Virus record (IMG/VR): IMGVR_UViG_3300012003_000002
Location: 33,562 to 97,561 of that record
DNA from: a virus
Strand: one strand, 5' to 3'
DNA: 64,000 bases
The notes below the pieces were generated by a model, which searched no databases, was not told the DNA's origin, and was given only the letters and a program-made list of their open reading frames with translations. Numbering within the stretch: the stretch's first letter is position 1; the number at the start of each line of letters is the position of its first letter. Shown piece by piece: positions 11,730 through 59,914 of this stretch. Both the position numbers and the translations under genes were made by a program.

Positions 11730-11736
11730 AATTTAA

Positions 11737-12318
11737 TTATTGTTGTATAAATTTACTACAAGAACTACAAGTAACTGTTTCACAATTTTTACATTTAGAT
11801 ATGTTACAAAGTTTTTTAAGATTATTTAACATTTCAATTGCTTGTAAATAATATCCAATACTTAATGATTTTTCAATAGAATCTATTAATAAATTTACAG
11901 TAATTGTTAAATTATTTGAATAAACAGTTGTAGAATTATAATCTATAGATTTTTCTGACTCTAATAAATAATTTAACATACACTTATAATAAGGTTGTAA
12001 ATTATAAGTAATAGCTAAAGCAGGATCTTGACAATTTACACAACCATCTATACCTATATAATTACTTTGAATTTCTACAAACCAAATATCAGTAAAGGAA
12101 TAAACACTTACTTCTTTAGCATCTATTATAAAAACTTCTTTATTATTAATTTGTTGTAATTTATAATTTAAATTAATACTTAAAGAATCATCTTTAAAAG
12201 TATCAATATTCCATAATTTAATTGAAGTTATTATACTTCCTGCAACAGTTTCTGCGTCAATTGCAAGTTGTTGTCCATCATTTAAAATTTCAAAGTTATT
12301 TACGATAACTGCTGCCAT
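11737..12318 (-). CDS. Structural-module protein with a Cys-rich C terminus
   Basis: A 193-residue protein. The central part is beta-rich. It contains CVNCQD near residue 95 and ends with CKNCETVTCSSCSKF, so two or three CxxC knuckles could bind zinc or form disulfides. It is the first gene after the terminator at 12331-12377, so it may begin a separate leftward transcript. The function is not known. Confidence 0.5.
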   Translation of the reverse strand: MAAVIVNNFEILNDGQQLAIDAETVAGSIITSIKLWNIDTFKDDSLSINLNYKLQQINNKEVFIIDAKEVSVYSFTDIWFVEIQSNYIGIDGCVNCQDPALAITYNLQPYYKCMLNYLLESEKSIDYNSTTVYSNNLTITVNLLIDSIEKSLSIGYYLQAIEMLNNLKKLCNISKCKNCETVTCSSCSKFIQQ

Positions 12319-12330
12319 ATTTTTTATATA

Positions 12331-12377
12331 AAAAAAGGCTGACTGTGTACAAATTAATGTTTACAATCAGCCTTTAA
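12331..12377 (-). terminator. Rho-independent terminator, leftward
   Basis: The minus strand has AAAGGCTGATTGT paired with the complementary ACAGTCAGCCTTT arm (one wobble or mismatch), followed by seven T. It lies directly after the 335-residue structural gene and should separate capsid-type from fibre-type transcripts. Confidence 0.5.
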
Positions 12378-12398
12378 GGTTATTATTTATTTATTTTA

Positions 12399-13406
12399 TT
12401 ATATTACTGCGAAATTAGCTGGTACTACAGCAAAAGTATCTACTGCTGTTCTAATAGAAGTAAGAATTGCATTTGTAGCAGCATTGTTTGCTAATGTATC
12501 AGCAACTTTATCTACTGCAATAGTTAAAACTTTATATTGACGTTCTACAGAAGTTTCTGTACGTGGCATATAATGTTTAATATGAATAAGATTATAAACA
12601 CCTGATCCAGATGCATATGTTGGAGTTAAGTTTCCAAAATTAGCTGGAAAACCATATTCTCTTGCTGGATCATATTTAAATCCTTTAAGAACATATTCTG
12701 CATTAGTAACCCATTTTCCAGTACCTGTTCCAGTATATGGTGCAGTTATTTGAGTAGTAGTTAAAACATTAAGGTTTGAACCATTATCTCCTGTTGGTAC
12801 ATTTTCAAAAACTTTACCTTTAATAGTAAATCGTAATTTACGACCAGTATCACGTCCAACACGATTAGCTTGATATTTTTCAGTAACTAAAATTCCAGTA
12901 CCATCTGCAACTGCAGTGAATTCTTTTCCACCACGATTAGATAGATTTTTATTTAAAGATACTAAAACACCATCTCTTACAGTTGTTGCTGTATCAGAAC
13001 CTAGTACTTGACCTGTTACATAATATCCTTGAATAGTTGTAAAATTTTCAGGAGATAATTGATCTTCTAATCTAATTTCAACTTCATAAGTTCTTTTAGC
13101 TGCTACAACACCTGCTGTGTTGAAACCATCTACTTTATAAGAACCTAACACTTCAGCAGAATAAGCTGTAACTGTAACTTTATCTACATATTTAGGATCT
13201 ACTTTATCAGAGAATTCAAATCCTCCAGGAATTCCATCTGCCTTTTGTAAAATATAAAAGGGTTTTTTTGCTGCAACATCACTACCATCTTTAGATAGTA
13301 CTTTTAATTCTTTGTCTGATGCTGTTGCAATAAAAGTAGGTACAGTTGTTTCTATAGCTACTGCGTTTCCAATCATCATTTCACCCACTTGATTTGGTGT
13401 TATCAT
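12399..13406 (-). CDS. Abundant structural protein, possible auxiliary capsid or tail protein
   Basis: A 335-residue protein, Ala/Thr/Val-rich, with more regular codon use than its neighbours and beta-rich throughout. It is bounded downstream by a strong terminator, which suits a highly expressed virion protein. I cannot match it to a named family. In crAss-like phages a similar place between connector and fibre genes holds auxiliary capsid or tail proteins, and that is the basis of the call. Confidence 0.5.
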   Translation of the reverse strand: MITPNQVGEMMIGNAVAIETTVPTFIATASDKELKVLSKDGSDVAAKKPFYILQKADGIPGGFEFSDKVDPKYVDKVTVTAYSAEVLGSYKVDGFNTAGVVAAKRTYEVEIRLEDQLSPENFTTIQGYYVTGQVLGSDTATTVRDGVLVSLNKNLSNRGGKEFTAVADGTGILVTEKYQANRVGRDTGRKLRFTIKGKVFENVPTGDNGSNLNVLTTTQITAPYTGTGTGKWVTNAEYVLKGFKYDPAREYGFPANFGNLTPTYASGSGVYNLIHIKHYMPRTETSVERQYKVLTIAVDKVADTLANNAATNAILTSIRTAVDTFAVVPANFAVI

Positions 13407-23883: not shown

Positions 23884-25355
23884 TCTTCAGAATTTAATAC
23901 TACAGCTTCAGTACTGAGTATAACTTTAGCAACTGATACTGCATTTTCTAATGCACATCTAGTTACTTTAAGAGGGTCAATAATATTTAAATCAAAACCT
24001 ATACCTGGAGTTTGATCTTTTATATTACAACCATTTTGTTTTATTGTATTTAATGGTGCAAAAAAACAACTATAAATAGAATCTATTAAATTTTTAGAAT
24101 CAAAGGTATCATAAAAATTTAAATTAAAAACACATTGTTTTAAAGCTATTCCAGCACCTTCTACAATACCTTCTTCTAATGCACAAGCTACAGCTTTAAC
24201 AGCATCATCATATCTATCAAAACGTTCTTTTACTTCAAGTTCTGATTTACCACCAACTTTAATAATAGATATTTTACCTTTAAGATATTCAATTCTTTGT
24301 TTAATTAAATCTTTATCGTGTTCAGCTAACTCTATATTCTTAGATAATTCAGTTAGAGATTCTAATTTAATAGAAACATCTACAGAATCATCTTTAACTA
24401 ATATACTATTGTTTTTAGATATTTTACAAGATTGTAATTTACCAAGAATATCTGTGTTATAAGATTTAGATATATCTGTAATTAATGTACTCCCAGTAAA
24501 CTCACATAGATCTTGCAATAGATCTTTACGGTGTTTAGAGAAGCCTGGCGACTTAATAATACATATTGGTAATGATTGTGATAGAACTAAAGTTTCAAGC
24601 TTTCTAAGAGCTTGTTCGTGAATATCTTCAACAATTATTAATAGTGAATTATTAGGTTGTTGTGTCAATTCTAATATAGCTCTAAAGTTTTCTAACTTTT
24701 CTAATTTACCATCAATAATTAAAGTGTTAACATTAGTAAATTCACAAATACCTTTAGATTGATTTGTAATAAAATGTTTAGAGAAGTAACTCACTGGAAG
24801 TGCCATTCCTGGTAAAGTATCTAACACATCTTCTGTATTAGAACTCTCTTCAATTTTAACTATATCAGAATGGTTATAAGCCTGTTGAATAAGCTCACCA
24901 ATCTGTAGATCGTTATTAGCAGATATGCTAGCAACGTGTTTAATATCTTCATGTTTTAATTCTCGTGAATTAAGTTTTAGTTGTTCAATAACTTTTGGTA
25001 TAATCTCATCAAAAGCTTTGTTAATATCTACAGATTTAAAATCTTTTAAATTATTAACAAATGCTGTAGCTAATACTATTGATGTTGTTGTACCATCTCC
25101 CGCTTCATCAGCTGTTTTTTTAGCAACCTGTTTAATTAAGTTTGCACCAATATTCTTTAATGGGTCTTTAAATGTGATTTGTTCTGCAACGGATACTCCA
25201 TCTTTAGTTATAATATATTCCCCATATTTGTTTTTATTAGGTATAATTACAGTAGCACCATTTGGTCCCATTGTAGAACTAACAGCTCTATTTAAATCAT
25301 TAATACCTTCTATAATCTTATCTCTCGCTTCTTTTCCAAAATATAATTCTTCCAT
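23871..25355 (-). CDS. groEL: GroEL-like chaperonin (Cpn60)
   Basis: A 494-residue protein, about 50 shorter than bacterial GroEL. It keeps the ATP site ITKDGVSVAEQITFKDP and the strict GDGTTTSIVLA, and the equatorial GGKSELEVKERFDRYDDAVKA and ACALEEGIVEGAG. The apical domain is divergent, and the flexible GGM tail is absent. It would form a folding chamber, perhaps for virion proteins, with host GroES or the GroES-like product of 26338-26718. It starts at an ATG that overlaps the stop of the upstream 53-residue gene by one base. Confidence 0.5.
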   Translation of the reverse strand: MEELYFGKEARDKIIEGINDLNRAVSSTMGPNGATVIIPNKNKYGEYIITKDGVSVAEQITFKDPLKNIGANLIKQVAKKTADEAGDGTTTSIVLATAFVNNLKDFKSVDINKAFDEIIPKVIEQLKLNSRELKHEDIKHVASISANNDLQIGELIQQAYNHSDIVKIEESSNTEDVLDTLPGMALPVSYFSKHFITNQSKGICEFTNVNTLIIDGKLEKLENFRAILELTQQPNNSLLIIVEDIHEQALRKLETLVLSQSLPICIIKSPGFSKHRKDLLQDLCEFTGSTLITDISKSYNTDILGKLQSCKISKNNSILVKDDSVDVSIKLESLTELSKNIELAEHDKDLIKQRIEYLKGKISIIKVGGKSELEVKERFDRYDDAVKAVACALEEGIVEGAGIALKQCVFNLNFYDTFDSKNLIDSIYSCFFAPLNTIKQNGCNIKDQTPGIGFDLNIIDPLKVTRCALENAVSVAKVILSTEAVVLNSEEWMK

Positions 25356-33178: not shown

Positions 33179-33540
33179 GGGGTCGACTGGTTTTGACAGG
33201 TAGATAATAAATATATAATTCAGCCAGAGAGATAACTGTAAACTAAGGTGAATATTTTTTAAACGGCAAAAATCAACAAACAGCCAATATGGCTAAAGTT
33301 TTTTCTCTAATCAATTCTGATATAACTGAATTTGAATTAGCAGCATAGTTTAAAACGGTCAGTAAGTTAATTCGCGATGTGCATTAATCCTGAACCAAAC
33401 TCAAACTATAGAGTAATTTAGTATTGGTCCACATTTAGTAGTTTTTAAAGGACAATAAAGATTAAATTCTACAATAAGCTGTATAAAATTATATATTAAA
33501 AACTATTTTGGACCCGAGTTCGATTCTCGGCGACTCCACA
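33179..33540 (+). ncRNA. ssrA: tmRNA (transfer-messenger RNA)
   Basis: The 5' end GGGGTCG-ACTGGTTTTGACAGG is the tmRNA signature. The 3' end has a T arm CCGAG-TTCGATT-CTCGG and CGACTCC, which pairs with GGGGTCG over seven pairs including G3-U70, the alanine identity pair; the discriminator is A and only CA of the CCA is encoded. The tag frame probably resumes at GGC 33265-33267 and runs 27 codons to TAG 33346-33348, starting GKNQQTAN and ending TEFELAA, so the LAA degradation signal is kept while the tag is long. tmRNA rescues stalled ribosomes with host SmpB. Confidence 0.5.
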
Positions 33541-33645
33541 GCTGTTATCTGAATTAGCACTAGGACGATAACTATCATTGGTGGAAGCTAATCACTTGAA
33601 TGATCCTGTAAGTTGTGACCAGTACACGTAAAAAGACACTTACCA
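33541..33645 (+). ncRNA. Structured region after the tmRNA
   Basis: Three successive hairpins can be drawn: GTTATC/GATAAC (33544-33572), ATCATT/AATGAT (33574-33604) and GTAAGT/ACTTAC (33608-33643). It may be the trailer of the tmRNA precursor or a separate RNA ended by 33646-33693. There is no open frame. Confidence 0.5.
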
Positions 33646-41095: not shown

Positions 41096-41698
41096 ATGAA
41101 AGAAGCTTTTATATTAGATTTAAATTTTCTAAAAGAACAAGATCTTTCTGTTATAGAATTCACAACTTTATTACAAATAAGTGGGATTAATACTGGATTA
41201 AATTCAAATAAATCTATTTTAAATATTTTACAAGAAAAACAATTTATTAAATTAATTGAGAATAAATTAGAAACAAATATTATTCTTCGTGAAAAAAGTA
41301 AATTATTAATAGATTTTTTATCAATAGAAAGTGATTCTTCAAATTATAAAAATAAAAAAGTTATTAAAAAGTCTACTCGTGTTATAAGCGAAGGTTTTGA
41401 TGAATTTATTGAAGAATATAGAAATCTATGGAAAGGTCTTAAAATTGGTTCTATGGGATCTCCAATAGCTTGTAAAGAGAAAATGGAGAGATGGATGAAA
41501 GAAAATCCTAATTACTCTAAAGAAGATATTCTTAAAGCTGCTAAAATCTATATTAATTCACTAAATAATTATCAATATCTTCAAGCTGCTCATTATTTTA
41601 TTTATAAAAAAGATGGTAAAGAAGAAGATTCTAGACTATCAGCTTTTATTAATGAAACCGAACCTGATAACATAGATTGGACCGTAAAATTATCATAA
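41096..41698 (+). CDS. Probable replication-initiation or helicase-loading protein
   Basis: A 200-residue protein with an N-terminal winged-helix-like part (residues 1-75) and a C-terminal helical domain (EEYRNLWKGLKIGSMG, SKEDILKAAKIYINSLNNYQYLQAAHYFIYKKDG). This two-domain plan is that of phage replisome organisers or DnaB loaders. It lies between polymerase and helicase genes, which fits. ATG 41096 is chosen; a longer frame would need an overlap into the previous gene. Confidence 0.5.
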   Translation: MKEAFILDLNFLKEQDLSVIEFTTLLQISGINTGLNSNKSILNILQEKQFIKLIENKLETNIILREKSKLLIDFLSIESDSSNYKNKKVIKKSTRVISEGFDEFIEEYRNLWKGLKIGSMGSPIACKEKMERWMKENPNYSKEDILKAAKIYINSLNNYQYLQAAHYFIYKKDGKEEDSRLSAFINETEPDNIDWTVKLS

Positions 41699-42195
41699 TG
41701 GAAGAAATTTGGAAAAATATAACAGGATATGAAAATTTATATATAGTATCTAATTATGGAAATATAAAAAGAGTTAAAAGTAATAGGATTTTAAAACCAG
41801 CTTTACAAAAGATAACAGGATATCTTAGACTTACTTTATGTAAAAATAATGTAAAGAAAAACGCATCTTTACATAGAATTGTAGCTCAAGAATTTATTGA
41901 AAATTTTAAAGATGAGCATCATATAAATCATAAAGATTATGATAAAACTAATAATAATTTAGATAATTTAGAAATTGTTTCCCGTATTGAAAATCAATGT
42001 CATCGTAGAAAAAATGAAAATAATTCATCTAACTATATGGGAGTATATTATCATAAACCCTCTAAAAAATATAGAGCAAATATATCAATAAATAAAGAAA
42101 GAATATATATTGGTTATTTTGATGATGAAAAAGACGCTTATAATGCTAGAGTTCAATATGAAAAAGATAATGGAATTATTAATAAATATATCTAA
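41698..42195 (+). CDS. HNH homing endonuclease with NUMOD4 and AP2-like parts
   Basis: A 165-residue protein: NUMOD4-like start (MEEIWKNITGYENLYIVSNYG), HNH core (LHRIVAQEFIENF, HHINHKDYDKTNNNLDNLEIVS) and an AP2-like DNA-binding end (YMGVYYHKPSKKYRANISINKERIYIGYF). ATG 41698 overlaps the previous stop (TAATG). It is a free-standing insertion in the replication operon. Confidence 0.5.
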   Translation: MEEIWKNITGYENLYIVSNYGNIKRVKSNRILKPALQKITGYLRLTLCKNNVKKNASLHRIVAQEFIENFKDEHHINHKDYDKTNNNLDNLEIVSRIENQCHRRKNENNSSNYMGVYYHKPSKKYRANISINKERIYIGYFDDEKDAYNARVQYEKDNGIINKYI

Positions 42196-47732: not shown

Positions 47733-47804
47733 GGTTGAGTAGCTCATTGGTAGAGTGTCTGACGATTAATCAGAAGGTAGTGAGTTCAATTCCCACCTCA
47801 ACCT
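47733..47804 (+). tRNA. tRNA, anticodon probably AUU (Asn-type), with G33
   Basis: Acceptor GGTTGAG / CTCAACC (7 pairs), D arm GCTC-ATTGGTA-GAGT, anticodon arm TCTGA-CGATTAA-TCAGA (5 pairs), T arm GTGAG-TTCAATT-CCCAC (one A-C mismatch), discriminator U, CCA not encoded. With a 7-base loop the anticodon is ATT. The usual U33 is replaced by G, and the discriminator is not the G expected for Asn, so decoding is uncertain. Confidence 0.5.
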
Positions 47805-47828
47805 CAATATTAACTAAAATTAAAAATT

Positions 47829-48179: not shown

Positions 48180-49205
48180 ATGTTTAATTTAAATAAAGAA
48201 AAACAATTAATATCTAAATCTGAGATTTTAAAATACTTTAACGAATTAGAAATATTTCAACATTATATAGATGATGAAGTAATGTTAGGTAAACTAATAT
48301 TATCACCTTTGAGAAAAGAACATAATCCTTCATTTGGATTCTTTGTTGGTGAAGGTAACGAAATATGTTTTAACGATTTTAAGCTTGGAAAAGGTGATTT
48401 TATACAGTTTTTAAGATTAAGAGATGGTTTAACATATTTTGAAGCTTTAAGTAAAGTTGCAAATGATTTTAATCTTCAAGATGATTATATTTGTAAAATA
48501 TATCCTAAAAATATTGATGACACACCTAAAGTTAGAATTATTAAAGATGATATGTTATCCAAATATACAGGTTATTATTTAGGTAAAAAAGCTAGAGAAT
48601 GGCAATCTCACGATGTGCTATTTTGGAGACAATTTGGTATTGGTAAAGAAACATTAGAGTTCTTTAATGTACAACCAATAAGTTTTATATTTATTGGAAA
48701 TAATTGTTTTCCTGCTGATAAATATGCATATTGTTTTATAGAAATGAAAGATGGTATTGAAACATATAAAATCTATCAACCTTTTAGTGAACAATATAAA
48801 TGGATTAATAATCATAATAATTCTGTGTGGCAAGGTTGGACACAATTACCTGAATCTGGTGATTATTTAATTATAACTAAATCATTAAAAGATGTAATGT
48901 CTTTATATGAAGTTGCTAAATTACCAGCAATTGCAATGCAATCTGAAAATGTATTACCAAAAAAACATATATTTGAACAATTAGAATCTAGATTTAAAGA
49001 TATTGAATTATTATATGACAATGACTACGACGCGAAACAAAATTGGGGACGCATATTTGCAGATAAATTTGCTAAAGAATTTGGATTAGTGGATAGTTTT
49101 ATACCAGATAAATATAAATCTAAAGATTTCTCAGATTTAGTTAAAAATTACGGTAAAGAACAAGCTGAGCATATATTATTATATGAAACATTATTACCTT
49201 TTTAA
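48180..49205 (+). CDS. DnaG-type primase (TOPRIM)
   Basis: A 341-residue protein. The N-terminal part (residues 1-110) resembles a primase zinc-binding domain that has lost its Cys ligands (SPLRKEHNPSFGFFV, DFIQFLRLRDGLTYFEAL). The TOPRIM core has DYLIITKSLKDVMSLYE and the acidic ELLYDNDYDAKQNWG. The first catalytic Glu position reads Lys (ITKS), as in some other phage primases. It belongs to the replication set with helicase and polymerase. Confidence 0.5.
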   Translation: MFNLNKEKQLISKSEILKYFNELEIFQHYIDDEVMLGKLILSPLRKEHNPSFGFFVGEGNEICFNDFKLGKGDFIQFLRLRDGLTYFEALSKVANDFNLQDDYICKIYPKNIDDTPKVRIIKDDMLSKYTGYYLGKKAREWQSHDVLFWRQFGIGKETLEFFNVQPISFIFIGNNCFPADKYAYCFIEMKDGIETYKIYQPFSEQYKWINNHNNSVWQGWTQLPESGDYLIITKSLKDVMSLYEVAKLPAIAMQSENVLPKKHIFEQLESRFKDIELLYDNDYDAKQNWGRIFADKFAKEFGLVDSFIPDKYKSKDFSDLVKNYGKEQAEHILLYETLLPF

Positions 49206-49634: not shown

Positions 49635-50084
49635 ATGATAGAAAAATATACTAAAAAATTAAGAATTTTATTATCCAAAAAAATAACAATACAATGTTAT
49701 TTAGATAAAAAATATGTTGATTTAAAAGAACACCATTTAATTTATATTAAAGATAATCCTAATGGAATTGAATTTAAAGTTATTAATAAAGATAAAATAG
49801 TATCTCAATTTAAACTTATACAGATGTCAGGATGTTGTGGAATATGTATTAGCACAGAAACATACGTAAATCCTGATTTTAGAGGGAAAGGTGTTAATGT
49901 TCTTTTAAATAACTTTAGAATTGATATTGCTAAACATTTAGGATATGGTTTATTATTGTGTACAGATTTGAAATCAAATACTCCACAAATGAAAACTTTA
50001 GATAAAAATGGTTGGAAACATATTCACGAATTTAAAAATCCTAGAACTGGAAATATTTTGAATGTAACTATTAAAGAGTTATGA
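49635..50084 (+). CDS. GNAT-type N-acetyltransferase
   Basis: A 149-residue protein with the GNAT core: ISTETYVNPDFRGKGVNVLLNNFRIDIAK, where RGKGV is the acetyl-CoA pyrophosphate loop, and a C-terminal KNGWKHIHEF strand. The acceptor could be an amine or peptide. Its stop overlaps the next gene, linking it to the amide cluster. Confidence 0.5.
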   Translation: MIEKYTKKLRILLSKKITIQCYLDKKYVDLKEHHLIYIKDNPNGIEFKVINKDKIVSQFKLIQMSGCCGICISTETYVNPDFRGKGVNVLLNNFRIDIAKHLGYGLLLCTDLKSNTPQMKTLDKNGWKHIHEFKNPRTGNILNVTIKEL

Positions 50085-50599
50085 GAAAAACTAATAAAAG
50101 ATCTGCGGGTTATAAAACAAAAGCGGAATTAAAAAAAGAAAGAAAAGAACTTAAAAGAAAATCTAAAATGGAAAAAAAGTTTTTAATAGGACTATATGAT
50201 GACTATAGAAAAGAGGGTTGTTTAAATGGAATGTTAGATAAAGTAAACTGTAAATTAATAGGAACTTATTCTACAGAACCAATTTATAGTATGTATAATG
50301 TAGAAGAAGATGATTGTTGTGTTGCTGAAACTAATGGAATCACTTCTATTAAAGTAGAAGTTTGGGAAGTAAACGAACCAAATTTAGAAAAAATAGAAAG
50401 AAGTTATAACTATTATCCAAATTTTGAAGAATACCCACAAGATTATAAAAAAGAAAAAGTATTATCTCCTTTTGGTGAAATTACAATATATTTTACAAAT
50501 ATTGAACAACCTAAAGAAGAACTTATAACTAATGGTGATTGGATTGAATATTTAAATTATAAAAAAGCAATTGGTAATAAAAGAGAAAACGTATTATGA
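50081..50599 (+). CDS. Gamma-glutamylcyclotransferase-like protein, divergent
   Basis: A 172-residue protein. The core KKFLIGLYDDYRKEG...CKLIGTYSTEPIYSMY and EVWEVNEPNLEKIERSYNYYP follows the layout of the GGCT fold next door (50918), but the YGSLR substrate loop is YDDYR and the catalytic Glu is not placed clearly. A basic 25-residue N-terminal extension is present. It may be a non-catalytic or altered-specificity paralog. Confidence 0.5.
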   Translation: MRKTNKRSAGYKTKAELKKERKELKRKSKMEKKFLIGLYDDYRKEGCLNGMLDKVNCKLIGTYSTEPIYSMYNVEEDDCCVAETNGITSIKVEVWEVNEPNLEKIERSYNYYPNFEEYPQDYKKEKVLSPFGEITIYFTNIEQPKEELITNGDWIEYLNYKKAIGNKRENVL

Positions 50600-50913
50600 A
50601 AAATTTAATCAAAGGTTTTATTAAAAAACAAAACAATATATTTTTATTAAAAGTTTTTAACAAAAGAATAAAAAATGGTTATGCTTATATTATAAATCAA
50701 AACGATGTTGATACTAAAGATATTTTATATTTTGAAAAAGAATATAGTTTTGAAATTATTGGATTAAACAGATGTTCTCAAGGATATGATAATTTACATA
50801 TTCTTTTACATACAGATATTTTTAATCTTATTGGTACAAATGGAAATGTTGACGATTTAAAAACACTTTTAAAATATGATTATATACCTTGTTTAGTAAA
50901 ATTAATAAAATAA
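50596..50913 (+). CDS. Protein of 105 residues, unknown
   Basis: Starts MKNLIKGFIKKQNNIFLLKVF, basic, mixed alpha/beta. It overlaps the previous gene by four bases. No family is recognised. Confidence 0.5.
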   Translation: MKNLIKGFIKKQNNIFLLKVFNKRIKNGYAYIINQNDVDTKDILYFEKEYSFEIIGLNRCSQGYDNLHILLHTDIFNLIGTNGNVDDLKTLLKYDYIPCLVKLIK

Positions 50914-50917
50914 AATT

Positions 50918-51325
50918 ATGAAAAAATATTTAGTAGGGGTATATGGTTCGTTAAGATCTGGAATGAGTAACCATCAATATTATTTATCTAATTCTGAATA
51001 TAAAGGAATATTTTCAACAGAACCTGAATATACTTTACATTCATTAAGTTATTATCCAGGATTGAAATTAAATGGTAATACTTCTGTTGTAATGGAAGTT
51101 TATGAAGTAGATGAAGAAACTTTAAATACTTTAAATAGATTAGAAGGTTATCGTCCTAATGAAAAATCAACTTTCTATGATAGAATTGAAATTAATACCC
51201 CTTGGGGTAAAGCTTTTACATATATTTATGTAAATGAATTATCTAAAGATTCTATTGTAGAATCTGGGGATTGGTGTGAATATAAAAATAAAGAAAAATC
51301 GTGGTTTAGTGTCACAAATAATTAA
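50918..51325 (+). CDS. Gamma-glutamylcyclotransferase (GGCT/BtrG-like)
   Basis: A 135-residue protein with the substrate loop VYGSLRSGMSNH near residue 8, YYPGLKLNG, and a catalytic-type Glu in NTLNRLEGYRP, followed by FYDRIEI. It would release 5-oxoproline from gamma-glutamyl amides. Adjacent amidoligase and amidotransferase genes indicate that the substrate is a product of this cluster, as with BtrG in butirosin synthesis. Confidence 0.5.
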   Translation: MKKYLVGVYGSLRSGMSNHQYYLSNSEYKGIFSTEPEYTLHSLSYYPGLKLNGNTSVVMEVYEVDEETLNTLNRLEGYRPNEKSTFYDRIEINTPWGKAFTYIYVNELSKDSIVESGDWCEYKNKEKSWFSVTNN

Positions 51326-51330
51326 AAAAT

Positions 51331-52026
51331 ATGAATAATATAAAAAAAATCGCTATTGTGGGACATTTCACTGGTGAAAATAGTTTTGGAATTTCTAAAC
51401 CATATCTATTCTTTTGGCAACGATTTGGAGAAGTATCTCTAATTTCACCATTTGAGAAACACGTAAGAGATGTGGATTTATTAGTAATGCCAGGTGGTCA
51501 AGATGTTGATCCTTATCGATATTTATCACCAGATGAAGACACTCATCTATATGTAGGTACACCTTGTATGCAAAAAGAGAGATTTGATAGATTTCTATTA
51601 CCTAAGTATATGGATGCAAATATTCCAATATTTGGTACTTGTCGTGGTATGCAATCAATGTATGTAACATTTGGTGGTAAACTTAATCAACATATGTCAC
51701 ATGAAACTAATCCTTCTAATGATGGTGGAAAATTAATGCACGGAATTAATTTTGAAAATCAACATATTGTTCCAGGATTTACAGAAATTACTCAACATAA
51801 ACCTGGTGAATATAAAATAAATAGTAGACATCATCAAACTGTAAATAAAGAAACTAAACCAGAAATTGTAACAATTCTTGCTAGACATAATACAGACGAT
51901 GAAATTGAATTTGCAACTACATTTCCATTTTATCCTTGTCATATGACACAGCATCATGTAGAGGACACATCAGATCCTGCTACAGTATTCTTAATCAATC
52001 ATTTATTAAATTTAAATAATAAATAA
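51331..52026 (+). CDS. Class I glutamine amidotransferase-like hydrolase (peptidase C26 type)
   Basis: A 231-residue protein with DLLVMPGGQDVDPYRY and the nucleophile elbow FGTCRGMQSMYVTFGG, then a His in NSRHHQTVNK. Such enzymes cleave gamma-glutamyl amides. A second, more distant one is at 53292. The stop overlaps the next start. Confidence 0.5.
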   Translation: MNNIKKIAIVGHFTGENSFGISKPYLFFWQRFGEVSLISPFEKHVRDVDLLVMPGGQDVDPYRYLSPDEDTHLYVGTPCMQKERFDRFLLPKYMDANIPIFGTCRGMQSMYVTFGGKLNQHMSHETNPSNDGGKLMHGINFENQHIVPGFTEITQHKPGEYKINSRHHQTVNKETKPEIVTILARHNTDDEIEFATTFPFYPCHMTQHHVEDTSDPATVFLINHLLNLNNK

Positions 52027-52442
52027 TGAAAGAACAAAAAGTAATTCTAGAAACAGCTAAATTAGCTAAAGAAAAAGGTTTTGATTGGGATTGTGACCAC
52101 TATTTTATAAAAGAAGACAATAGCTTAACAAAAGCTATGTATTATGAAATGGATATTAATAATAAAACTATTGATGATGATAGTGGCTATTTTAGTTCTA
52201 TACCTTTATGTGTAGCACCAACACAAGCTTTACTTGCTAAATGGTTAAGAGAAGTATATGGGTTAGAATTATTTATTCATAAATTTAAACCTAATGATGC
52301 TTATCCTAAAGGGTATTATTGTGTATCTAAGCCATTAACATATTATAGTAATGAGATGAAAGATTGGATATTTACTAATTTCAAAACTTACGAAGAAGCT
52401 TTAGAAGTAGGTCTTCAAGAAGCACTTAAATTAATAAAATAA
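52026..52442 (+). CDS. Protein of 138 residues in the amide cluster, unknown
   Basis: Helical and basic; contains PLCVAPTQALLAKWLREVYGLELFI. Proteins with this WLRE..G...I pattern occur widely in phages without a known function. It overlaps the previous gene's stop and is two bases from the ATP-grasp gene. Confidence 0.5.
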   Translation: MKEQKVILETAKLAKEKGFDWDCDHYFIKEDNSLTKAMYYEMDINNKTIDDDSGYFSSIPLCVAPTQALLAKWLREVYGLELFIHKFKPNDAYPKGYYCVSKPLTYYSNEMKDWIFTNFKTYEEALEVGLQEALKLIK

Positions 52443-52443
52443 T

Positions 52444-53295
52444 ATGAATAAATTAAAAAAATATAAGTTATACAGGAGTTTAGTTTTATCGAGACATCCA
52501 TCTCACTCTATTTTAAGAGCTAAAAATCAAACATTACCATTATTACCATTTAGATCTGTAATAAGACTTGGATCGTCAACAGAATCTGATGGTAGATTGG
52601 AAATAAATACTGCAGAAGCAGTTAAAAATTCCGCTTCTAAACTGTTAATGAAACAAAAGTTTTCTGAAGCTGATGTTAAAACTGCTAATTGGTGGAAATT
52701 GTTAGCAAATGGTGAAGTATTTAATGGTGTAACTGGTAATACTACAAATGGTAATAATCATCATTTTGAAGATTTACCATTTCCTTTAGTAGCAAAATCT
52801 CACTTTGGTTCAAGAGGTATTGGTAATACTAAATTTAATACTATAGAAGAATTAAAAGCTTGGTTACCAAATAAAAATCTTAATAATTATATATTTGAAA
52901 AGTTTGTTAAAATGACTAGAGAATATAGATTACACATAACTAAATTTGGATGTTTCTATACTTGTAGAAAATTAGTTAAAAATGATGCTCCTGAAGATAC
53001 TTGGCAAAAACACGATGATGTTTGTAATTGGGTATTAGAAGAAAATCCATCATTTAAGAAACCTAAGAATTGGGATAGTATTGTTGCAGATTGTATTAAA
53101 GCAAAAGATGCTTTAGGATTAGATATTTGTGCATTTGACGTAGGTGTTCAAGGTGCTAAATATGGTATTGAAAGAGAAAATCCTGAATGGGTTATATTTG
53201 AATCGTGTAGCGCACCATCATTTGGTGATATAACAAGTCAAAAATATATAGAAATCTTACCAAAATTATTAATAGATAAATATAATAACAAATGA
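52444..53295 (+). CDS. ATP-grasp ligase (phiEco32-type)
   Basis: A 283-residue protein. The ATP-grasp parts are PLVAKSHFGSRGIGNTKF (Lys and Gly-rich loop) near residue 118, IFEKFVKMTREYRLHI (adenine and Arg) near 155 and FESCSAPSFGDITSQ near 257 (metal-binding acid/Asn site). The enzyme should join an amine to a carboxylate via an acyl phosphate. It overlaps the next gene by four bases, in the amide cluster. Confidence 0.5.
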   Translation: MNKLKKYKLYRSLVLSRHPSHSILRAKNQTLPLLPFRSVIRLGSSTESDGRLEINTAEAVKNSASKLLMKQKFSEADVKTANWWKLLANGEVFNGVTGNTTNGNNHHFEDLPFPLVAKSHFGSRGIGNTKFNTIEELKAWLPNKNLNNYIFEKFVKMTREYRLHITKFGCFYTCRKLVKNDAPEDTWQKHDDVCNWVLEENPSFKKPKNWDSIVADCIKAKDALGLDICAFDVGVQGAKYGIERENPEWVIFESCSAPSFGDITSQKYIEILPKLLIDKYNNK

Positions 53296-54275
53296 ATCCA
53301 GAATTAATAGAAAAAATAAATCAATATAATATAAATTATAATACTAAAAAAGAAATTGTTCATTCATTTTTAAATAGTTCTATTTCAGGATCCTTATATT
53401 CTGAAATAGAAGGAGATAGTATGAGTGATAAAATAGAAACTATTTATCATTATTTAAATAATATAGTTAAAGAACCAGAAATAAAACAAACTTTAAATAT
53501 TGTAATTGCAGATGATGCTTCATCTTTATATTATGTATCATATTTAAATGAAAAATATGAAGTTATTGTTCATAAAACAAAAGATGTAAAAGATGTAAAA
53601 GATATTGATTTAGTGTTATTTACAGGTGGTGAAGATGTTAATCCTGCACATTATGGTGAAAATGTTGGTAAATTTACAAGTATTAATAAATCTAGAGATG
53701 ATAAAGAAATAGATACTTTTTATAGATTTAGAGAACATTCTTTATTATTAGGGATATGTCGAGGAAATCAGTTATTAACGGTTTTAAGTGGTGGTAAATT
53801 AATTCAACATGTAGAAGGTCATGGTAGAGATCATTCAATGATTTTAAACAATAGAATGAAATATAACATTACTTCTTCACATCACCAAATGATATATCCT
53901 TTTGATTTAAATGAGAAAAGTTATGAATTAATTGCTTATTCTGAATATTTTCAAAGTAAAACATATCTTAATGGAGATAATAAAGAAGTTGAATTATCAA
54001 AAAACTTTTTAGAACCTGAAATTGTTTATTATAAAAATACAAATGCATTATGTATTCAAGGTCATCCTGAATGGAGTCATTGTGAAAGAAGAACTTCTTC
54101 AATGTGTTTAAATTTAATTGATAAATATTTGAAAGAATTTAAAAAATCAAAAGAATTAAATACTTCACTCCATTCTCAAATATTATCAATTCCTTTAAAA
54201 TCTCAATGGGACGATAATGATGATCATTATGATGATAATGAAAAATATTATGAAGAAGAAAACTTACCACTTTAA
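53292..54275 (+). CDS. Second class I amidotransferase-like hydrolase with helical extension
   Basis: A 327-residue protein. The C26-type core runs from DLVLFTGGEDVNPAHYG to LGICRGNQLLTVLSGG (nucleophile Cys) and IQGHPEWSH (His and Glu). An N-terminal helical domain (residues 1-65) and an acidic tail (DDNDDHYDDNEKYYEEENLPL) are extra. The paralog at 51331 lacks these. It precedes the COOH-NH2 ligase gene. Confidence 0.5.
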   Translation: MNPELIEKINQYNINYNTKKEIVHSFLNSSISGSLYSEIEGDSMSDKIETIYHYLNNIVKEPEIKQTLNIVIADDASSLYYVSYLNEKYEVIVHKTKDVKDVKDIDLVLFTGGEDVNPAHYGENVGKFTSINKSRDDKEIDTFYRFREHSLLLGICRGNQLLTVLSGGKLIQHVEGHGRDHSMILNNRMKYNITSSHHQMIYPFDLNEKSYELIAYSEYFQSKTYLNGDNKEVELSKNFLEPEIVYYKNTNALCIQGHPEWSHCERRTSSMCLNLIDKYLKEFKKSKELNTSLHSQILSIPLKSQWDDNDDHYDDNEKYYEEENLPL

Positions 54276-54293
54276 TAAAAATTATAAAAACAT

Positions 54294-54623
54294 ATGAAAA
54301 TTAAAAATATAACTTTAGGTACAGATCCAGAATTATTTCTACAAAAAGATAATAAAATTATTTCAGCAATTGGTAAAATTGGGGGATCTAAATCAGAGCC
54401 TCAAGCTATTTCGGAAGATGGTCATTTTATTCAAGAAGATAATGTTGCAATTGAATATAATATACCACCTTGTACAACGATTACTGATTGGATATATCAT
54501 AATAATTTTGTTAAAGATTATTTAGAAGTATTAGTTTCTGGAATGGGTTGTACATTAGCAATTCAACCTTCTGCTACATTAGATGAATCTGAGTTAGATA
54601 ACGATATTGCAAAATTAGCTGGT
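54294..54623 (+). CDS. COOH-NH2 ligase type 2 (phiEco32-like), exon 1
   Basis: Encodes MKIKNITLGTDPELFLQKDN to KLAG (110 residues). DPELFL, GKIGGSK and EDNVAIEYNIPP match the family start (amidoligase, glutamine-synthetase-like fold). The frame then meets a stop six codons on, in intron sequence. Joined after GGT at 54623 to TGT at 55686, it gives KLAG-CEPDFDVW, as expected for this family, and a 270-residue product. Confidence 0.5.
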
Positions 54624-54719
54624 GAGTCATTGCCGTCTTAGTTAGAAATAACTATTATAATTAACGAACAAAAACGGTGAATAAATATTCATAATTATTA
54701 TAAAATAACTACCAAAATA

Positions 54720-54751
54720 TTAGGATTTGTCATTAAAATTTCGTATATTGC
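54720..54751 (+). promoter_or_regulatory. Promoter of the intron-encoded endonuclease
   Basis: TTAGG, 19 bases, TATATTGC (one change from TAnnTTTG), 24 bases before ATG 54775. The spacer shares TTGTCAT with that of 63799-63830. Confidence 0.5.
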
Positions 54752-54774
54752 ATAAATTTAAAAAGTGTAATAAT

Positions 54775-55503
54775 ATGAAAAAATATATTTCAAATGAAAA
54801 TTATTTTGAGGAAATTGATTGTGATTTAAAAGCTTATTTATTAGGCTTTTTTCTTGCTGATGGGTGCATCACAATGAATAGTGGTTGTAAAAATAGTTAT
54901 AAACTTTCAATAAATATTTCAGAAATAGATAAAGAACTTGTTAAACTTTATCAAAAAACAATATGTCCAAATAATAAAATAATTATTAGTAATTATACCA
55001 AAGGTGCTGTAAATAGAAAACCTACTTGGCAAATTAAATGGACATCTAATAAAATGAAAATAGATTTAGAAAAATTTAATATATCTTTAAGAAAAACAAA
55101 TGATTTAACGTTTGAATTTCCTTTTGATAAATTAGAAACAAAATTTCATTTTTCATTTATTAGAGGATTTTTTGATGGAGATGGTTGTTTATCTTATGAA
55201 AAAGATAAAATAGGTTTTAAATTTTTATTTTACGCAACATCTAAATTATTTTTAGAACAAATTGGAGAATTATTTCAAAATGAATTTGGAATAAAATATT
55301 CAATTTCTGGAGTAAAAAAGAAAAATTTAATACTATATAGTTTAAGTTTTAATTCTAATCAAAAGAGAAAGTCTTTTATAGAAAAAGTATATAATAAAAT
55401 GTATACAAATTCAGAATTCTCATTAGATAGAAAAAGATTAAAAATTGAAAGTTATTTAAATACCGTGCTAAACAAAGAAATTAAAAAATCTTTGTCAGTG
55501 TAA
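54775..55503 (+). CDS. LAGLIDADG homing endonuclease (in intron)
   Basis: A 242-residue protein with two LAGLIDADG motifs, AYLLGFFLADGCI near residue 17 and SFIRGFFDGDGCL near 128, so it should act as a monomer. ATG 54775 is chosen because it follows its own promoter; an upstream non-ATG start would overlap that promoter. It should cut the intronless ligase allele and drive intron spread. Confidence 0.5.
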   Translation: MKKYISNENYFEEIDCDLKAYLLGFFLADGCITMNSGCKNSYKLSINISEIDKELVKLYQKTICPNNKIIISNYTKGAVNRKPTWQIKWTSNKMKIDLEKFNISLRKTNDLTFEFPFDKLETKFHFSFIRGFFDGDGCLSYEKDKIGFKFLFYATSKLFLEQIGELFQNEFGIKYSISGVKKKNLILYSLSFNSNQKRKSFIEKVYNKMYTNSEFSLDRKRLKIESYLNTVLNKEIKKSLSV

Positions 55504-55685
55504 CGCATAGGAGTTGATCCATAATTTAAGACACATTTAGTGTCTTTTTTTATGACTAAAATATTCCCACGAGTGTTCGTCACCTAACTGTCTGTAAGAT
55601 AAAAGGTGAAAATATATGCTGAGCTATAGTGAGTGAATGTAGCTATAGAACTAGAGGATAAAAAGCCTTTAGGATAACAAAACTG

Positions 55686-56168
55686 TGTGAACCAGATTTT
55701 GATGTATGGAATGAATGTATTAATACACCTGCTAATTTAAGTTTAACTAGTATGCGAAGTGCTGGAGGACATATTTCAATAGGTTGGGATAATCCTACTC
55801 AAGAACAACAACTTGATATGGTTAAAGCGATGGATGCTACAGTTGGTTTAGAATCTGTATTATTAGATTTTGATACAGAACGTAAAAAACTTTATGGTAA
55901 AGCAGGTTGTTTTAGATTCCGTGAATATGGAATTGAATACAGAAGTTTATCTAATTTCTGGATTAAATCTGACGAATCTTTACAATGGTCGTGGAATACT
56001 ACAATGAAAGCAATTGATTTAATTAATTCTAATAAAATTGAAGAAGTTAAAGAATTAGGTATTTATATTGTAGAAGCAATTAATACAAATAATAAAGAAC
56101 TTGCTCAAGAATTATTAAATAAAATTGAAGTAATTACTAATATTAAAACAAAGGTTTTAAATAAATAA
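55686..56168 (+). CDS. COOH-NH2 ligase type 2 (phiEco32-like), exon 2
   Basis: Encodes CEPDFDVWNECINTPA..., then SMRSAGGHISIGW, YGKAGCFRFREYGIEYRSLSNFW, the metal- and substrate-binding part of the fold (160 residues). The first internal ATG is at 55752, so an unspliced message would give a truncated, inactive protein. Splicing to exon 1 at 54623 keeps the frame. Confidence 0.5.
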   Translation, partial: CEPDFDVWNECINTPANLSLTSMRSAGGHISIGWDNPTQEQQLDMVKAMDATVGLESVLLDFDTERKKLYGKAGCFRFREYGIEYRSLSNFWIKSDESLQWSWNTTMKAIDLINSNKIEEVKELGIYIVEAINTNNKELAQELLNKIEVITNIKTKVLNK

Positions 56169-56178
56169 AAATTAAAAA

Positions 56179-58098
56179 ATGGTAAAAATAATTCTAATAT
56201 TAGCATTATTACAGTATATATATAACTTTATATTTGGTTATAAATTAAATATATTAAGTTGTGGAATTTTTGGACAAGCTACAAACAAATCTAAAAATTT
56301 AGATGTTAATGGTGTTCATATCTTAGGAATATATAATATAGAAAGAGGTAAAATGTCTTGTGGATTATCTTGGGATGGAGATATACAGTACGGTCTTGGT
56401 TTAGATAAATTATATACAGATTTTATTATAGACAGAGAAATTAAACCTACTAAAATTCCTATTATGATTGGTCATACTAGACAACCTAGTTATGGTTTTG
56501 CAATTACTGAAGATAATGCACATCCATTTGGATTTGGAACAAGTAAAAATAAAGAAGGTTATGAAATGATTTTCTGTCATAATGGTACTTTAAAAAATCA
56601 TAAAGAATTAGCTAAAAAATATGATATTGACTTATCTGAAAAAATTCAAAAACAATCACATGGAGGTCATTTTTATGAAACAACTCGTGATAAAATTGAT
56701 AGTGAAATATTAGGAGAAATATTATATAAAACAAAAAAATTTCACATTTTAAGTGAATATATTGGAGCTGCTGCTTTAGCTTGGACTTGGATAGATGAAC
56801 CAAATAAATTATATTTATGGTCTGGTGCATCTAAACAAACACAAGGATCTGTTATAGTTACTGAAATAGAAGAAAGACCTATGAATGTTTATTGTAAAAA
56901 TGAAAATAATATGTTTTTTTCATCTATACAGGATAGTTTAACTGTTTTAGGAGCATCTAAGAAAAATGATTTACAAATAGATTATAATACTGTTTATATT
57001 ATTACAGATGGTGATTTTACAAATGCTGAAAAACATAAAGTTAGTCGGCTGCAGGCAGGACAAAACGAAATTGTTACATATAATACAAAATATAACCATT
57101 ACGGTAATGAATTTTGTGACTGGGATAACTATGAAGATGTAAGAGAAAAAAATAAAAATGTTAGAACTACTATTGATACAGAAAGTACTAATACTTCAAT
57201 GACAAATTTACATAACGATAAACCAATTCGAGCTATTGTAGATTATAATGGTAAAGTATATTCTAAAAGTTTAAGATATTGGGAAAATGGATCTCTTATA
57301 AATGGTATTTATGTTTATATTAAAAATTGGGGTTTTAAATTTACAGGAAATGATTCTTTTGTATCAGGTAATTTTATTAAAAACATAAAAGGTTTATCTT
57401 TTAATTATATAACAGGTACTTTTAATTATAATATATTAAATACAGAAGGGTTTATTCCATTTAAAAAAGATATTGATAATATACAATTTCATTATTTTAT
57501 AAATGGTGTTTTATTAAAAACTTCTGAAGATTATAATAGAGCAGTTATTCTACAAAAAGAATTAAAAGTACCAATTAAATATATTAATCATCAAATATTA
57601 TCTCATATTTCTAAACATCCTATAATTGATATGGATCCTACAAAAACAGTATCTATTGCAATGTTAGATGGTAAATCTTTTACTGGAAATATAACAGAAT
57701 TAGGTTTTGAAAAAATATATTATTTTACTAATGGAATATTAACAAAATGGGTTAAAAGAGAAGATTTGATAATTAAAAAAGAAACTCCTGTTATAATGTT
57801 ACCTGCTGTTATAGAATCAAGTAAATTTGATAAAGAATTATTTGATAATTCTATTAAATCTATTGAAACTTTTGAAAAAAATATTAGAATAGAAGATATT
57901 GCTAAAGAATTGGAAGATGAAACTTTTATAAAAGAATTGATTATGGAATCTTTTGAAAGACATTCTGAAGAAGTATCTGAAACAATTATTGAACTTTCTG
58001 ATTGGAAAGAAAATGAAATTGTTAAAACAGCTTTAAATACATTAAATTTAATAAGTCATACATTAAAAGACTTTGTTGAAAAACCTAATAAAAAATAA
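56179..58098 (+). CDS. Class II glutamine amidotransferase with N-terminal leader
   Basis: A 639-residue protein. Residues 28-230 are an Ntn glutaminase: CGIFG (Cys28 nucleophile), GHTRQPSYGF, FCHNGTLKNH and DSEILGEILY. The Cys must become N-terminal, yet here it is preceded by a hydrophobic 27-residue leader (ILILALLQYIYNFIF) and no start codon lies directly before it. A cleaved propeptide, as in some PurF enzymes, or a signal sequence is implied. The C-terminal 400 residues match no family I know. It should supply ammonia to a ligase of the cluster. Confidence 0.5.
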   Translation: MVKIILILALLQYIYNFIFGYKLNILSCGIFGQATNKSKNLDVNGVHILGIYNIERGKMSCGLSWDGDIQYGLGLDKLYTDFIIDREIKPTKIPIMIGHTRQPSYGFAITEDNAHPFGFGTSKNKEGYEMIFCHNGTLKNHKELAKKYDIDLSEKIQKQSHGGHFYETTRDKIDSEILGEILYKTKKFHILSEYIGAAALAWTWIDEPNKLYLWSGASKQTQGSVIVTEIEERPMNVYCKNENNMFFSSIQDSLTVLGASKKNDLQIDYNTVYIITDGDFTNAEKHKVSRLQAGQNEIVTYNTKYNHYGNEFCDWDNYEDVREKNKNVRTTIDTESTNTSMTNLHNDKPIRAIVDYNGKVYSKSLRYWENGSLINGIYVYIKNWGFKFTGNDSFVSGNFIKNIKGLSFNYITGTFNYNILNTEGFIPFKKDIDNIQFHYFINGVLLKTSEDYNRAVILQKELKVPIKYINHQILSHISKHPIIDMDPTKTVSIAMLDGKSFTGNITELGFEKIYYFTNGILTKWVKREDLIIKKETPVIMLPAVIESSKFDKELFDNSIKSIETFEKNIRIEDIAKELEDETFIKELIMESFERHSEEVSETIIELSDWKENEIVKTALNTLNLISHTLKDFVEKPNKK

Positions 58099-58099
58099 A

Positions 58100-59914
58100 A
58101 TGAGTGCTGAAAAAAAAGTAATTACAATAAAAGGAGAAGAGTTATCTATTTCTCAATGTAGAAAATTTAATAAACTTTATTATAAAATAGGAGATATTAA
58201 TATTCAAAATTCAGGAGATTGTTATTTAATTAATGGTAAATGTTATCGAGAAGAAACAGGATTAGTTGTTTATAATTATAGTATGAAAGAATATGTTATT
58301 TTAGATAATACAGTAATTCGAGGAATTATTGATATTATAGAAGATACGTTGATAATTGGTTATTTTAATAATAATATTAAATATTCTAAAATAGTAGATA
58401 AAAATAATAATAGTTTTTATTTATTTAATCCAGAAAATTTTAAAGATAATAAAGAATATAGAGAACAATTATCTTCTGGAAATTTTTATCATATATCAAG
58501 ACTTCCATCATATAAATTTAATAGATTATTATTTCCAAGTAAAGATTACAAATATAGTTTACCATATGACTCAAAGGGAATTATAGGAAATAATTTAAAG
58601 AATTATAATGAAAATTACAATCCTGAAATTTCAAAAAGTATTAAGAATTATGCACCTCTATTAGAGAATTTATCATTTGGTTTAGAATTTGAAACAACTA
58701 AAGGATTTATTCCAAACAGAATTCTTAATAAATATGGATTAATTCCTTTAAGAGATGGTTCTATATCTGGTATTGAATATGTTACAGTTCCTATGCAAGG
58801 TGAAAAAGGATTACAATGTACTTCTGATATTCTTAAAGTATTAAAAGAAAGAACTGAATATAATGATGATACTTGTTCATTACATTTACATTTAGGTAAT
58901 GTTCCAAGAACAAAAGAATTTATATTAGCATTTTTTAAAGTGGGTATGAAAATTCAAGATGAAATATTTGAAATGTTTCCTTTGTATAAAAAATATAATT
59001 ATCATATTAAGAATAAAAATTATTCTGCACCATTACCAACTTTTGAAATTTTATCACAATTAGATCCTAGTATTAATTCAAGTAATATAGATGAAAATTT
59101 TGGAGTATTGTATAAATATTTATCAATGGGTCAAGATTTTAAATCTGTTGATAACGATCTTAATAATGTTTTAAGTCATCCAGCAGATCCAAATGGTAAT
59201 CAAAAGTGGAATATAAAATTTCGATATTATTTGTATAATATAATCCCGTTAATATTTGGTAATAAGCAAACTATTGAATTTAGAATTCATACTCCTACTT
59301 ATGATGTAAATAAAATATTTCCATTTATATTTATGAATAGTTTAATAGTTAATTTTACAATAAGAAATCAAGAAAATATTTTAAAAAACAAATCTTTTTT
59401 AAAAGAATTTGATATAACTGATATTTTATATAATCAAATTGAAATATATAATATTTCAAATAAAAGTCAATTTCGAGATTTAATTTATGAATATATTGAA
59501 AAAAGAAAAAATCATTGTGAAAAACAGATTTTAAAAGGAAATATTTTAGGTACTGAATCTGAAATACCAGCTCCAACTAATATTAATTGGTTAAATACTC
59601 AAGTAATTAAGAAAAATCCTTATTTAGATTCATATGTTGAACCACCTTCATATATAAAGAAATCATATACAATTAAAAAAACACCTGTAGTTAAAAAAGT
59701 TGATAATAATCCTGGAGATGTTGATGAATTATTACATACTGTAAAAAATTCTATATATAGTATAGGTAATATAAATTTTAATAATATACAGTATAATACT
59801 TCTACAGGTTTTATTAGTTATTCTGATGCAGTTTTTTTAGATAATCCTGTAATAATAGATAAAATAGAAAAAGTAGAACCTATAAAACAAGAATCAAATG
59901 ATCTCCCTTTCTAA
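58100..59914 (+). CDS. Amidoligase-family enzyme (Amidoligase_2 type)
   Basis: A 604-residue protein. The catalytic region is at residues 195-450: SFGLEFETTKGF (metal-binding Glu pair), LRDGSISGIEYVT, CSLHLHLGNVPR, KFRYYLYNIIPLIF and TIEFRIHTPTYD. The N-terminal 190 residues are beta-rich and novel to me. ATG 58100 is chosen; the longer frame starts with TTG and overlaps the amidotransferase gene. Amidoligases use ATP to join amines to glutamyl-type carboxylates. Confidence 0.5.
   Translation: MSAEKKVITIKGEELSISQCRKFNKLYYKIGDINIQNSGDCYLINGKCYREETGLVVYNYSMKEYVILDNTVIRGIIDIIEDTLIIGYFNNNIKYSKIVDKNNNSFYLFNPENFKDNKEYREQLSSGNFYHISRLPSYKFNRLLFPSKDYKYSLPYDSKGIIGNNLKNYNENYNPEISKSIKNYAPLLENLSFGLEFETTKGFIPNRILNKYGLIPLRDGSISGIEYVTVPMQGEKGLQCTSDILKVLKERTEYNDDTCSLHLHLGNVPRTKEFILAFFKVGMKIQDEIFEMFPLYKKYNYHIKNKNYSAPLPTFEILSQLDPSINSSNIDENFGVLYKYLSMGQDFKSVDNDLNNVLSHPADPNGNQKWNIKFRYYLYNIIPLIFGNKQTIEFRIHTPTYDVNKIFPFIFMNSLIVNFTIRNQENILKNKSFLKEFDITDILYNQIEIYNISNKSQFRDLIYEYIEKRKNHCEKQILKGNILGTESEIPAPTNINWLNTQVIKKNPYLDSYVEPPSYIKKSYTIKKTPVVKKVDNNPGDVDELLHTVKNSIYSIGNINFNNIQYNTSTGFISYSDAVFLDNPVIIDKIEKVEPIKQESNDLPF

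Follow-up and report, generated by a model that had tools for sequence, protein, structure and literature searches.

We analysed a 64,000-nucleotide stretch of viral DNA (the window; positions 33,562 to 97,561 of IMG/VR virus record IMGVR_UViG_3300012003_000002), in which ten genes transcribed in the same direction (49635-59914), which overlap or follow one another closely, encode ligases, amidotransferases and hydrolases that may build and trim amide bonds. The source virus, whose record is 97,561 bp long, is a Crassvirales (crAss-like) phage; its TerL is approximately 40% identical to those of crAss-like phages, and its major head protein and portal match phage families. A DNA primase gene (48180-49205) flanks the cluster on one side, and genes for UDG, a RusA-like resolvase and a PD-(D/E)XK exonuclease lie on the other, from 59898 onwards. 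Families were assigned by profile checks against Pfam and PHROGs (Table 1). These checks bear out nearly all of the gene content listed in the original prediction, which had been made from the sequence alone; the parts that did not hold up fully are the acetyltransferase, whose match is weak, and the first gamma-glutamyl cyclotransferase-like (GGCT) protein, which falls below the Pfam cut-off and has lost its catalytic Glu. Three features go beyond that prediction: an intron-split COOH-NH2 ligase gene, a class II glutamine amidotransferase (GATase) predicted to be an anchored pro-enzyme, and a probably dead GGCT paralogue. Pfam returned no match for the ATP-grasp protein of the window. The GNAT-like gene has a homolog inside the cluster in only a few relatives, and the true start of Amidoligase_2 is probably ATG 58100 rather than TTG 58073.

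Table 1. Genes and other features of the amide-metabolism cluster, in window coordinates.
Feature	Position	Strand	Evidence
GNAT-like acetyltransferase (tentative)	49635..50084	+	Pfam/PHROG weak, E 0.005, under cut-offs; R-G-x-G motif in sequence
GGCT-like copy 1, probable pseudoenzyme	50081..50599	+	Pfam 22.2 bits vs cut-off 22.8; PHROG 2520 E 2e-8
Small open reading frame, 105 aa	50596..50913	+	Homolog in just one other contig
GGCT (gamma-glutamyl cyclotransferase-like; GGCT/GGACT) copy 2	50918..51325	+	PF06094 70.9 bits, over cut-off
Peptidase C26 / class I GATase-like hydrolase 1	51331..52026	+	PF07722 82 bits
phrog_12005 protein	52026..52442	+	E 2e-23; homologs in 25/99 contigs
ATP-grasp ligase (RimK-like), core gene	52444..53295	+	PHROG 2599 E 1.6e-22
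Peptidase C26 / class I GATase-like hydrolase 2, with N-terminal extension	53292..54275	+	PF07722 61 bits
COOH-NH2 ligase type 2, exon 1 (DPE motif, E54)	54294..54623	+	Junction via intact genes L069, L070, L071, L073
Group I intron, 1,062 bp (P1-P4, P6-P9; U before 5' site; 3'-terminal G)	54624..55685	+	
LAGLIDADG homing endonuclease within intron	54727..55503	+	PF14528 55 bits
COOH-NH2 ligase type 2, exon 2 (H139, R187, E194, R196)	55686..56168	+	PF14395
Class II GATase N-terminal hydrophobic extension, 27 aa; predicted membrane anchor / propeptide	56179..56259	+	
Class II GATase with extra C-terminal region, core gene	56179..58098	+	PF13522 28.3 bits vs cut-off 27
Amidoligase_2 with beta-rich N-terminal domain, core gene	58100..59914	+	PF12224 25.2 bits vs cut-off 22

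Four of these genes form a core that recurs across phages. Alignments of proteins from the window, Cellulophaga phage phi14:2, cr108_1 and a Leptolyngbya phage served as queries, and scans of viral contigs yielded 127 non-redundant contigs, of which the 99 for which 15 kb or more of sequence was available were used for cluster counts. The ATP-grasp ligase, COOH-NH2 ligase (PF14395), class II GATase and Amidoligase_2 were all present in 94 of the 99, a figure that is slightly biased upwards because contigs were seeded with three of the four core genes; the counts for partner genes are independent. The co-occurrence of the core genes exceeds chance. The quartet is kept in at least three orders, the commonest being ATP-grasp, COOH-NH2 ligase, GATase, Amidoligase_2 (64 contigs), followed by COOH-NH2 ligase, Amidoligase_2, GATase, ATP-grasp (15) and COOH-NH2 ligase, ATP-grasp, GATase, Amidoligase_2 (10). 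C26 hydrolases occur in 84 of the 99 contigs and GGCT proteins in 78, with two or more of both in 15. Thus, the set is not as unusually complete as had been proposed, since the four-enzyme core is the norm; the doubling of GGCT and C26 is indeed less common, although one of the GGCT copies is probably inactive. In cr108_1 (L003), two proteins of 300–330 residues without a Pfam or PHROG match lie between the ATP-grasp and C26 genes (6586-8487).

The quartet is a standard phage module and is already known in that sense, resembling the set of phiEco32 and LUZ24. In the window, the ATP-grasp, PF14395, PF12224 and class II GATase genes are adjacent on one strand, as in the phiEco32-type ligase cluster predicted by Iyer et al. 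2009 (as reported in PMC10580990). The same quartet is found in phi14:2, cr108_1, the Leptolyngbya phage, phiEco32, TL and Clew-10, and Vibrio phage WD615 has at least the COOH-NH2 ligase, the class II GATase and a putative glutamate ligase; the Kuravirus phages of the BASEL collection have the set as well. The earlier comparison with phiEco32, and the logic of builders paired with trimmers, hold: phiEco32 has either the same set as LUZ24-like, Vibrio and crAss-like phages or one very close to it. In phiEco32 (phi32_77-86), the ATP-grasp, PF14395 ligase, Amidoligase_2, class II GATase and GGCT genes likewise adjoin primase/helicase genes, but their order differs, and the crAss-like version is distinguished by two C26 hydrolases, a second and probably dead GGCT, a predicted membrane extension on the GATase and a group I intron. 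Two Steigviridae share the gene order of the window: cr108_1 and phi14:2 (Crassvirales; g037-g041), the latter with the order primase, GGCT, ATP-grasp, COOH-NH2 ligase, class II GATase, Amidoligase_2, UDG, RusA and a hydrophobic extension on its GATase as well. Unlike the window, phi14:2 is without C26, has a single GGCT and an uninterrupted ligase gene, and its proteins are 30–48% identical. Relatives of PF14395 are present in more than 300 phage records, including phiEco32, LUZ24-like and Vibrio phages, whereas a collection of 84,980 species genomes gave just 11 loci, every one on a contig of a metagenome-assembled genome, so the family appears to be essentially viral. A search of the literature found no demonstrated common product or substrate for the phiEco32-type amide-ligation cluster.

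The COOH-NH2 ligase had been taken for a single open reading frame, but its gene is in fact split between the frames at 54294-54641 and 55752-56168, which are separated by an intron with a LAGLIDADG gene. Intact genes from four relatives (L069, L070, L071 and L073; 87–94% identical) define an exact junction, GGT^TGT, with exon 1 ending at 54623 and exon 2 starting at 55686. Once joined, the protein scores 28.1 bits against PF14395 (curated cut-off 25), and a profile search with exon 1 alone gave no match. Because the family-invariant residues fall in both exons, only the joined ligase can be active. Comparison of four insertions (in the window, L021, L153 and L165) indicates that the gene is split by a group I intron. 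They have a common group I architecture, consisting of P1 with a U.G at the 5' site, P2 with a GAAA loop, P3, P4, P6, P7, P8, P9, an extra helix after P7 and a terminal G. The shared fold comprises 57 pairs, of which 22 show changes on both sides, and 95.8% of 216 cells pair; it was drawn on the same four sequences, which favours the pairing figure, although the compensations do not follow from that choice. None of 500 shuffles reached this level, and slid controls gave 1–5 compensated pairs. The endonuclease of the window intron is 57% identical to that of the L021 intron, and an endonuclease frame is lacking in two of the four introns.

A different reading, that the ligase is a broken pseudogene, would draw on the in-frame stops between the halves and on the Rfam searches, which found no intron in the window up to E 1 (nor in the compact L165 intron up to E 10). 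However, the junction is exact at the nucleotide level, frame and catalytic residues are kept on both sides of it, and a compensated group I core recurs in four relatives at different sites, so that we regard a pseudogene as most improbable. An intein or a group II intron was also considered and rejected, given the in-frame stops and, by eye, neither a group II boundary nor a domain V. The transcript of the intron-split gene would be spliced. The same gene is interrupted at a second place, the GHIHIG motif, in L021, L153 and L165, and at a third place in L158; exact intron motifs were found in just two contigs of the viral collection, and both contigs belong to these relatives. In crAss-like phages, group I introns, likewise with LAGLIDADG endonucleases, have been reported in MCP, PolB and primase genes (Yutin et al. 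2021, PMC7886860), whereas here they interrupt a metabolic ligase gene, at three or more positions across relatives. Such repeated insertion into a metabolic ligase gene is new to us. In L021, the Amidoligase_2 gene also lies in two reading frames, approximately 860 bp apart (about 9992-12573), and thus a second cluster gene may be interrupted.

Class II GATases use an N-terminal cysteine, Cys1, as the nucleophile, and some are made with short propeptides that are cleaved. In the window, the nucleophile is residue 28, which follows MVKIILILALLQYIYNFIFGYKLNILS; sequence and fold comparison place it on residue 1 of mature PurF, GlmS, AsnB and glutamate synthase, so that a cysteine at the mature N-terminus would need the removal of 27 residues. 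A non-ATG start directly before Cys28 is impossible here because the preceding codon is AGT. Among 105 non-redundant homologs, 42 have a hydrophobic helix before the cysteine and 57 start with Met-Cys. The consensus of the extension is a hydrophobic helix followed by KPK-x-N-x-L-[SN] directly before the Cys, with Leu at −2 in 37 of the 42, and no such N-terminus was found in 581 proteins of the other cluster families. The window enzyme shares its glutaminase domain and active site with PurF, GlmS and glutamate synthase, but the leader of the window type differs from theirs in being a hydrophobic helix of 22–48 residues with the conserved N-x-L-[SN] before Cys. A lipoprotein signal peptide was ruled out by the Leu at −2, the frequent Asn at −1 and the positive residues between helix and Cys. 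The extension carries a net charge of +0.1 before the helix and +1.7 after it, from which a cytosolic enzyme domain is predicted, and its pN/pS of 0.12–0.46 points to purifying selection. On a quick tree, some of whose branches are long, the extension switches between present and absent 25 times, and well-supported branches force at least 10 of these changes, which excludes the extension as the marker of a single clade. It is optional, since near neighbors such as L007 are without it.

Residues C28, R101, N135, G136 and D174 of the active site are invariant in 44 homologs, and the domain superposes on PurF and GlmS with Z scores of 24–25. It also superposes on the gamma-glutamyl hydrolase EgtC (Z 21.7), so that it may act as a hydrolase. 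The C-terminal region matched neither PRTase nor SIS domains, and a fold search returned nothing for this region or for the N-terminal domain of Amidoligase_2. Together, these features suggest that the GATase is probably a membrane-anchored precursor, or pro-enzyme. Cleavage of the propeptide before Cys28 would be the simplest reading of the alignment, and membrane insertion and cleavage would both be expected of such an enzyme.

If the enzyme is anchored, one substrate to consider is the cell envelope. A lipid-linked peptidoglycan precursor might be amidated or given an amine, in the manner of AsnB/LtsA-type enzymes or MurT/GatD, so that the lysins or adsorption of other phages fail and superinfection is excluded. 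The predicted anchor of the glutaminase is consistent with this model, as is the precedent of glutamine-dependent cell-wall amidation by MurT/GatD (PMC3267633). In addition, the phiEco32 amidoligase and GATase have been proposed to modify the cell wall against superinfection (as reported in PMC10580990). On the other hand, the cluster has no wall-specific gene, the anchor is missing in more than half of the homologs, and the C26 and GGCT trimmers would be superfluous for simple amidation. We consider this model possible, though doubtful.

The remaining enzymes supply the ligase and trimming activities. Most catalytic sites are intact, and the loss of catalytic residues from most members, which had been named in advance as evidence against such a cluster, was not seen. 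Both C26 hydrolases keep a Cys-His-Glu triad, the first with the Cys in GTCRG and Q-H-H-V-E at the His/Glu site (read by eye, as a script had misaligned its Glu). GGCT copy 2 retains the YGxLR loop (YGSLR) and the catalytic Glu in RLEGY. In copy 1, RSYNYY replaces RLEGYR, with Tyr for the catalytic Glu, and YDDYR replaces YGSLR. Because these changes are present also in eight close relatives (L006, L007, L009, L011, L012, L013, L025 and L147, all of which have lost the Glu), copy 1 appears to be conserved yet is probably not a cyclotransferase; as judged from its residues, it is probably a dead enzyme. The ATP-grasp protein keeps the Mg ligands Asp and Glu, and its profile matches the structures of PurK, Ddl, RimK-related proteins and cyanophycin synthase. 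The active sites of the GS-like ligases are invariant across the family. For Amidoligase_2, a model with a pLDDT of 84 places a GS/GCS fold at residues 189–487, after a beta-rich domain, and this fold matches Dop, YbdK, GshF, GS and PafA in a tie at Z 9–10. No solved structure was related in sequence to Amidoligase_2, and none was convincing for the COOH-NH2 ligase. Scanning for relatives of Amidoligase_2 with one protein as the query came back empty, whereas queries made from alignments worked.

This inventory of builders and trimmers bears on two further models. The first is a soluble gamma-glutamyl metabolite cycle, similar to that of the Puu pathway or of butirosin, in which amines would be gamma-glutamylated and then released by C26 or GGCT enzymes to give a polyamine or other small molecule. 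The frequency of C26 and GGCT genes across contigs, the GCS-type fold of the ligases and the superposition of the GATase domain on EgtC are all in keeping with such a cycle. However, it would not need a membrane anchor, and neither an amine-utilization dehydrogenase nor a transporter was recognized beside the cluster; overall, it is conceivable but doubtful. The second model is a protein or peptide tag, in which RimK-like or Pup-ligase-like enzymes would attach amino acids to a protein of the host or the phage and the C26 and GGCT enzymes would act as editors. PHROGs names the ATP-grasp family a ribosomal protein S6 glutaminyl transferase, and the structural matches of the Amidoligase_2 model include Dop and PafA besides GS and GCS. 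Yet these matches are tied with those to GS and GCS, and neither a tag protein nor a carrier was recognized in the window. Tagging is an unlikely account.

The position of the cluster, which lies with replication genes in the phages examined, is what a role in DNA or nucleotide modification would lead one to expect, with the quartet making an amide-linked hypermodified base that blocks restriction. We considered this model because Gordonclarkvirinae resist restriction-modification systems without a known cause (PMC11990801). However, the authors of that idea based it on a dCTP deaminase and a nucleotidyltransferase that these phages also encode. Moreover, the DNA of phage tf, for which PMC3890496 lists the quartet genes, is cut by HaeIII, and BamHI cuts the DNA of phage Delta, which belongs to the same genus as TL, although cutting by these two enzymes is compatible with partial or base-specific modification. 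A modified base thus seems quite unlikely.

Our tentative preference, which we rate as a serious possibility falling a little short of probable, is that the region encodes, in its crAss-like form, a pathway specific to phages and widespread among them, which would use glutamine and ATP to form amide bonds and would also trim gamma-glutamyl bonds. The sequences themselves show its gene content, conservation, catalytic residues, intron structure and junction, and the presence of the GATase extension with purifying selection on it. The order of the reactions can be proposed as follows. The class II GATase would be translated with a membrane helix ahead of its catalytic Cys, and removal of the helix, or processing at the membrane, would free Cys1. 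The mature glutaminase would then release ammonia or, alternatively, take off a gamma-glutamyl group. The ATP-grasp enzyme and the two GS/GCS-type ligases would use ATP to activate carboxylates and couple these to ammonia or to an amine; the intact COOH-NH2 ligase could be made only once the group I intron has been spliced out. The C26 hydrolases and the active GGCT could either strip away protecting groups of the gamma-glutamyl type or recycle by-products.

The most likely target of this pathway is a membrane-associated envelope precursor or a small amine conjugate of the host, and the pathway probably acts near the inner membrane. We favor an envelope precursor because the GATase is predicted to be membrane-anchored. 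Such anchoring agrees with what was proposed for phiEco32 and fits the cell-envelope target suggested by Iyer et al. 2009, both as reported in PMC10580990. A more specific version is on the unlikely side. In it, a virus-only pathway would work at the inner membrane, where a glutaminase made as an anchored zymogen, with a dedicated cleavage motif directly before its catalytic Cys, would supply ammonia to ligases specific to the virus, and these would decorate a lipid-linked precursor of the host envelope.

Several observations weigh against this interpretation. The cluster sits among replication genes and not among envelope or lysis genes. The structural model of the GATase has a low pTM (0.48), and thus its extension and C-terminal part are not placed reliably. 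The 57 homologs that start with Met-Cys, some of them very close (L007), have no anchor, and a membrane location is therefore not required for the pathway in general. In the ATP-grasp enzyme, the usual Mg-ligand Asn is a Cys in 7 of 37 proteins, including that of the window, which has ESC in place of EIN. Finally, the GATase step may be dispensable, since Pseudomonas phage TL, in which the gene is interrupted as annotated, was isolated. In TL (L224), the class II GATase is annotated as two misc_features (10508-11609) and not as a coding sequence, which could reflect either a dispensable gene or a frameshift.

Other features of the window lie outside the cluster. A NUMOD4-HNH-AP2 homing endonuclease (41677-42195, + strand) is a second mobile element of the replication region, and a tRNA-Asn gene (47733-47805, + strand; ATT anticodon as printed) lies shortly upstream of the primase region. 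This crAss-like phage genome also has a complete tmRNA gene (33179-33541, + strand; Rfam 66.3 bits) with the tag GKNQQTANMAKVFSLINSDITEFELAA and encodes a chaperonin of the GroEL/Cpn60 family (23871-25355, − strand) next to the gene for the terminase large subunit.

In summary, a ligase belonging to the set is encoded by hundreds of sequenced phages, some of which are candidates for therapy against Pseudomonas and E. coli. The repeated insertion of introns into the ligase gene and the near-universal completeness of the set suggest that it matters to the phage. The predicted anchored pro-enzyme provides a concrete hint as to the site of action and makes an older prediction from comparative genomics testable in one laboratory.

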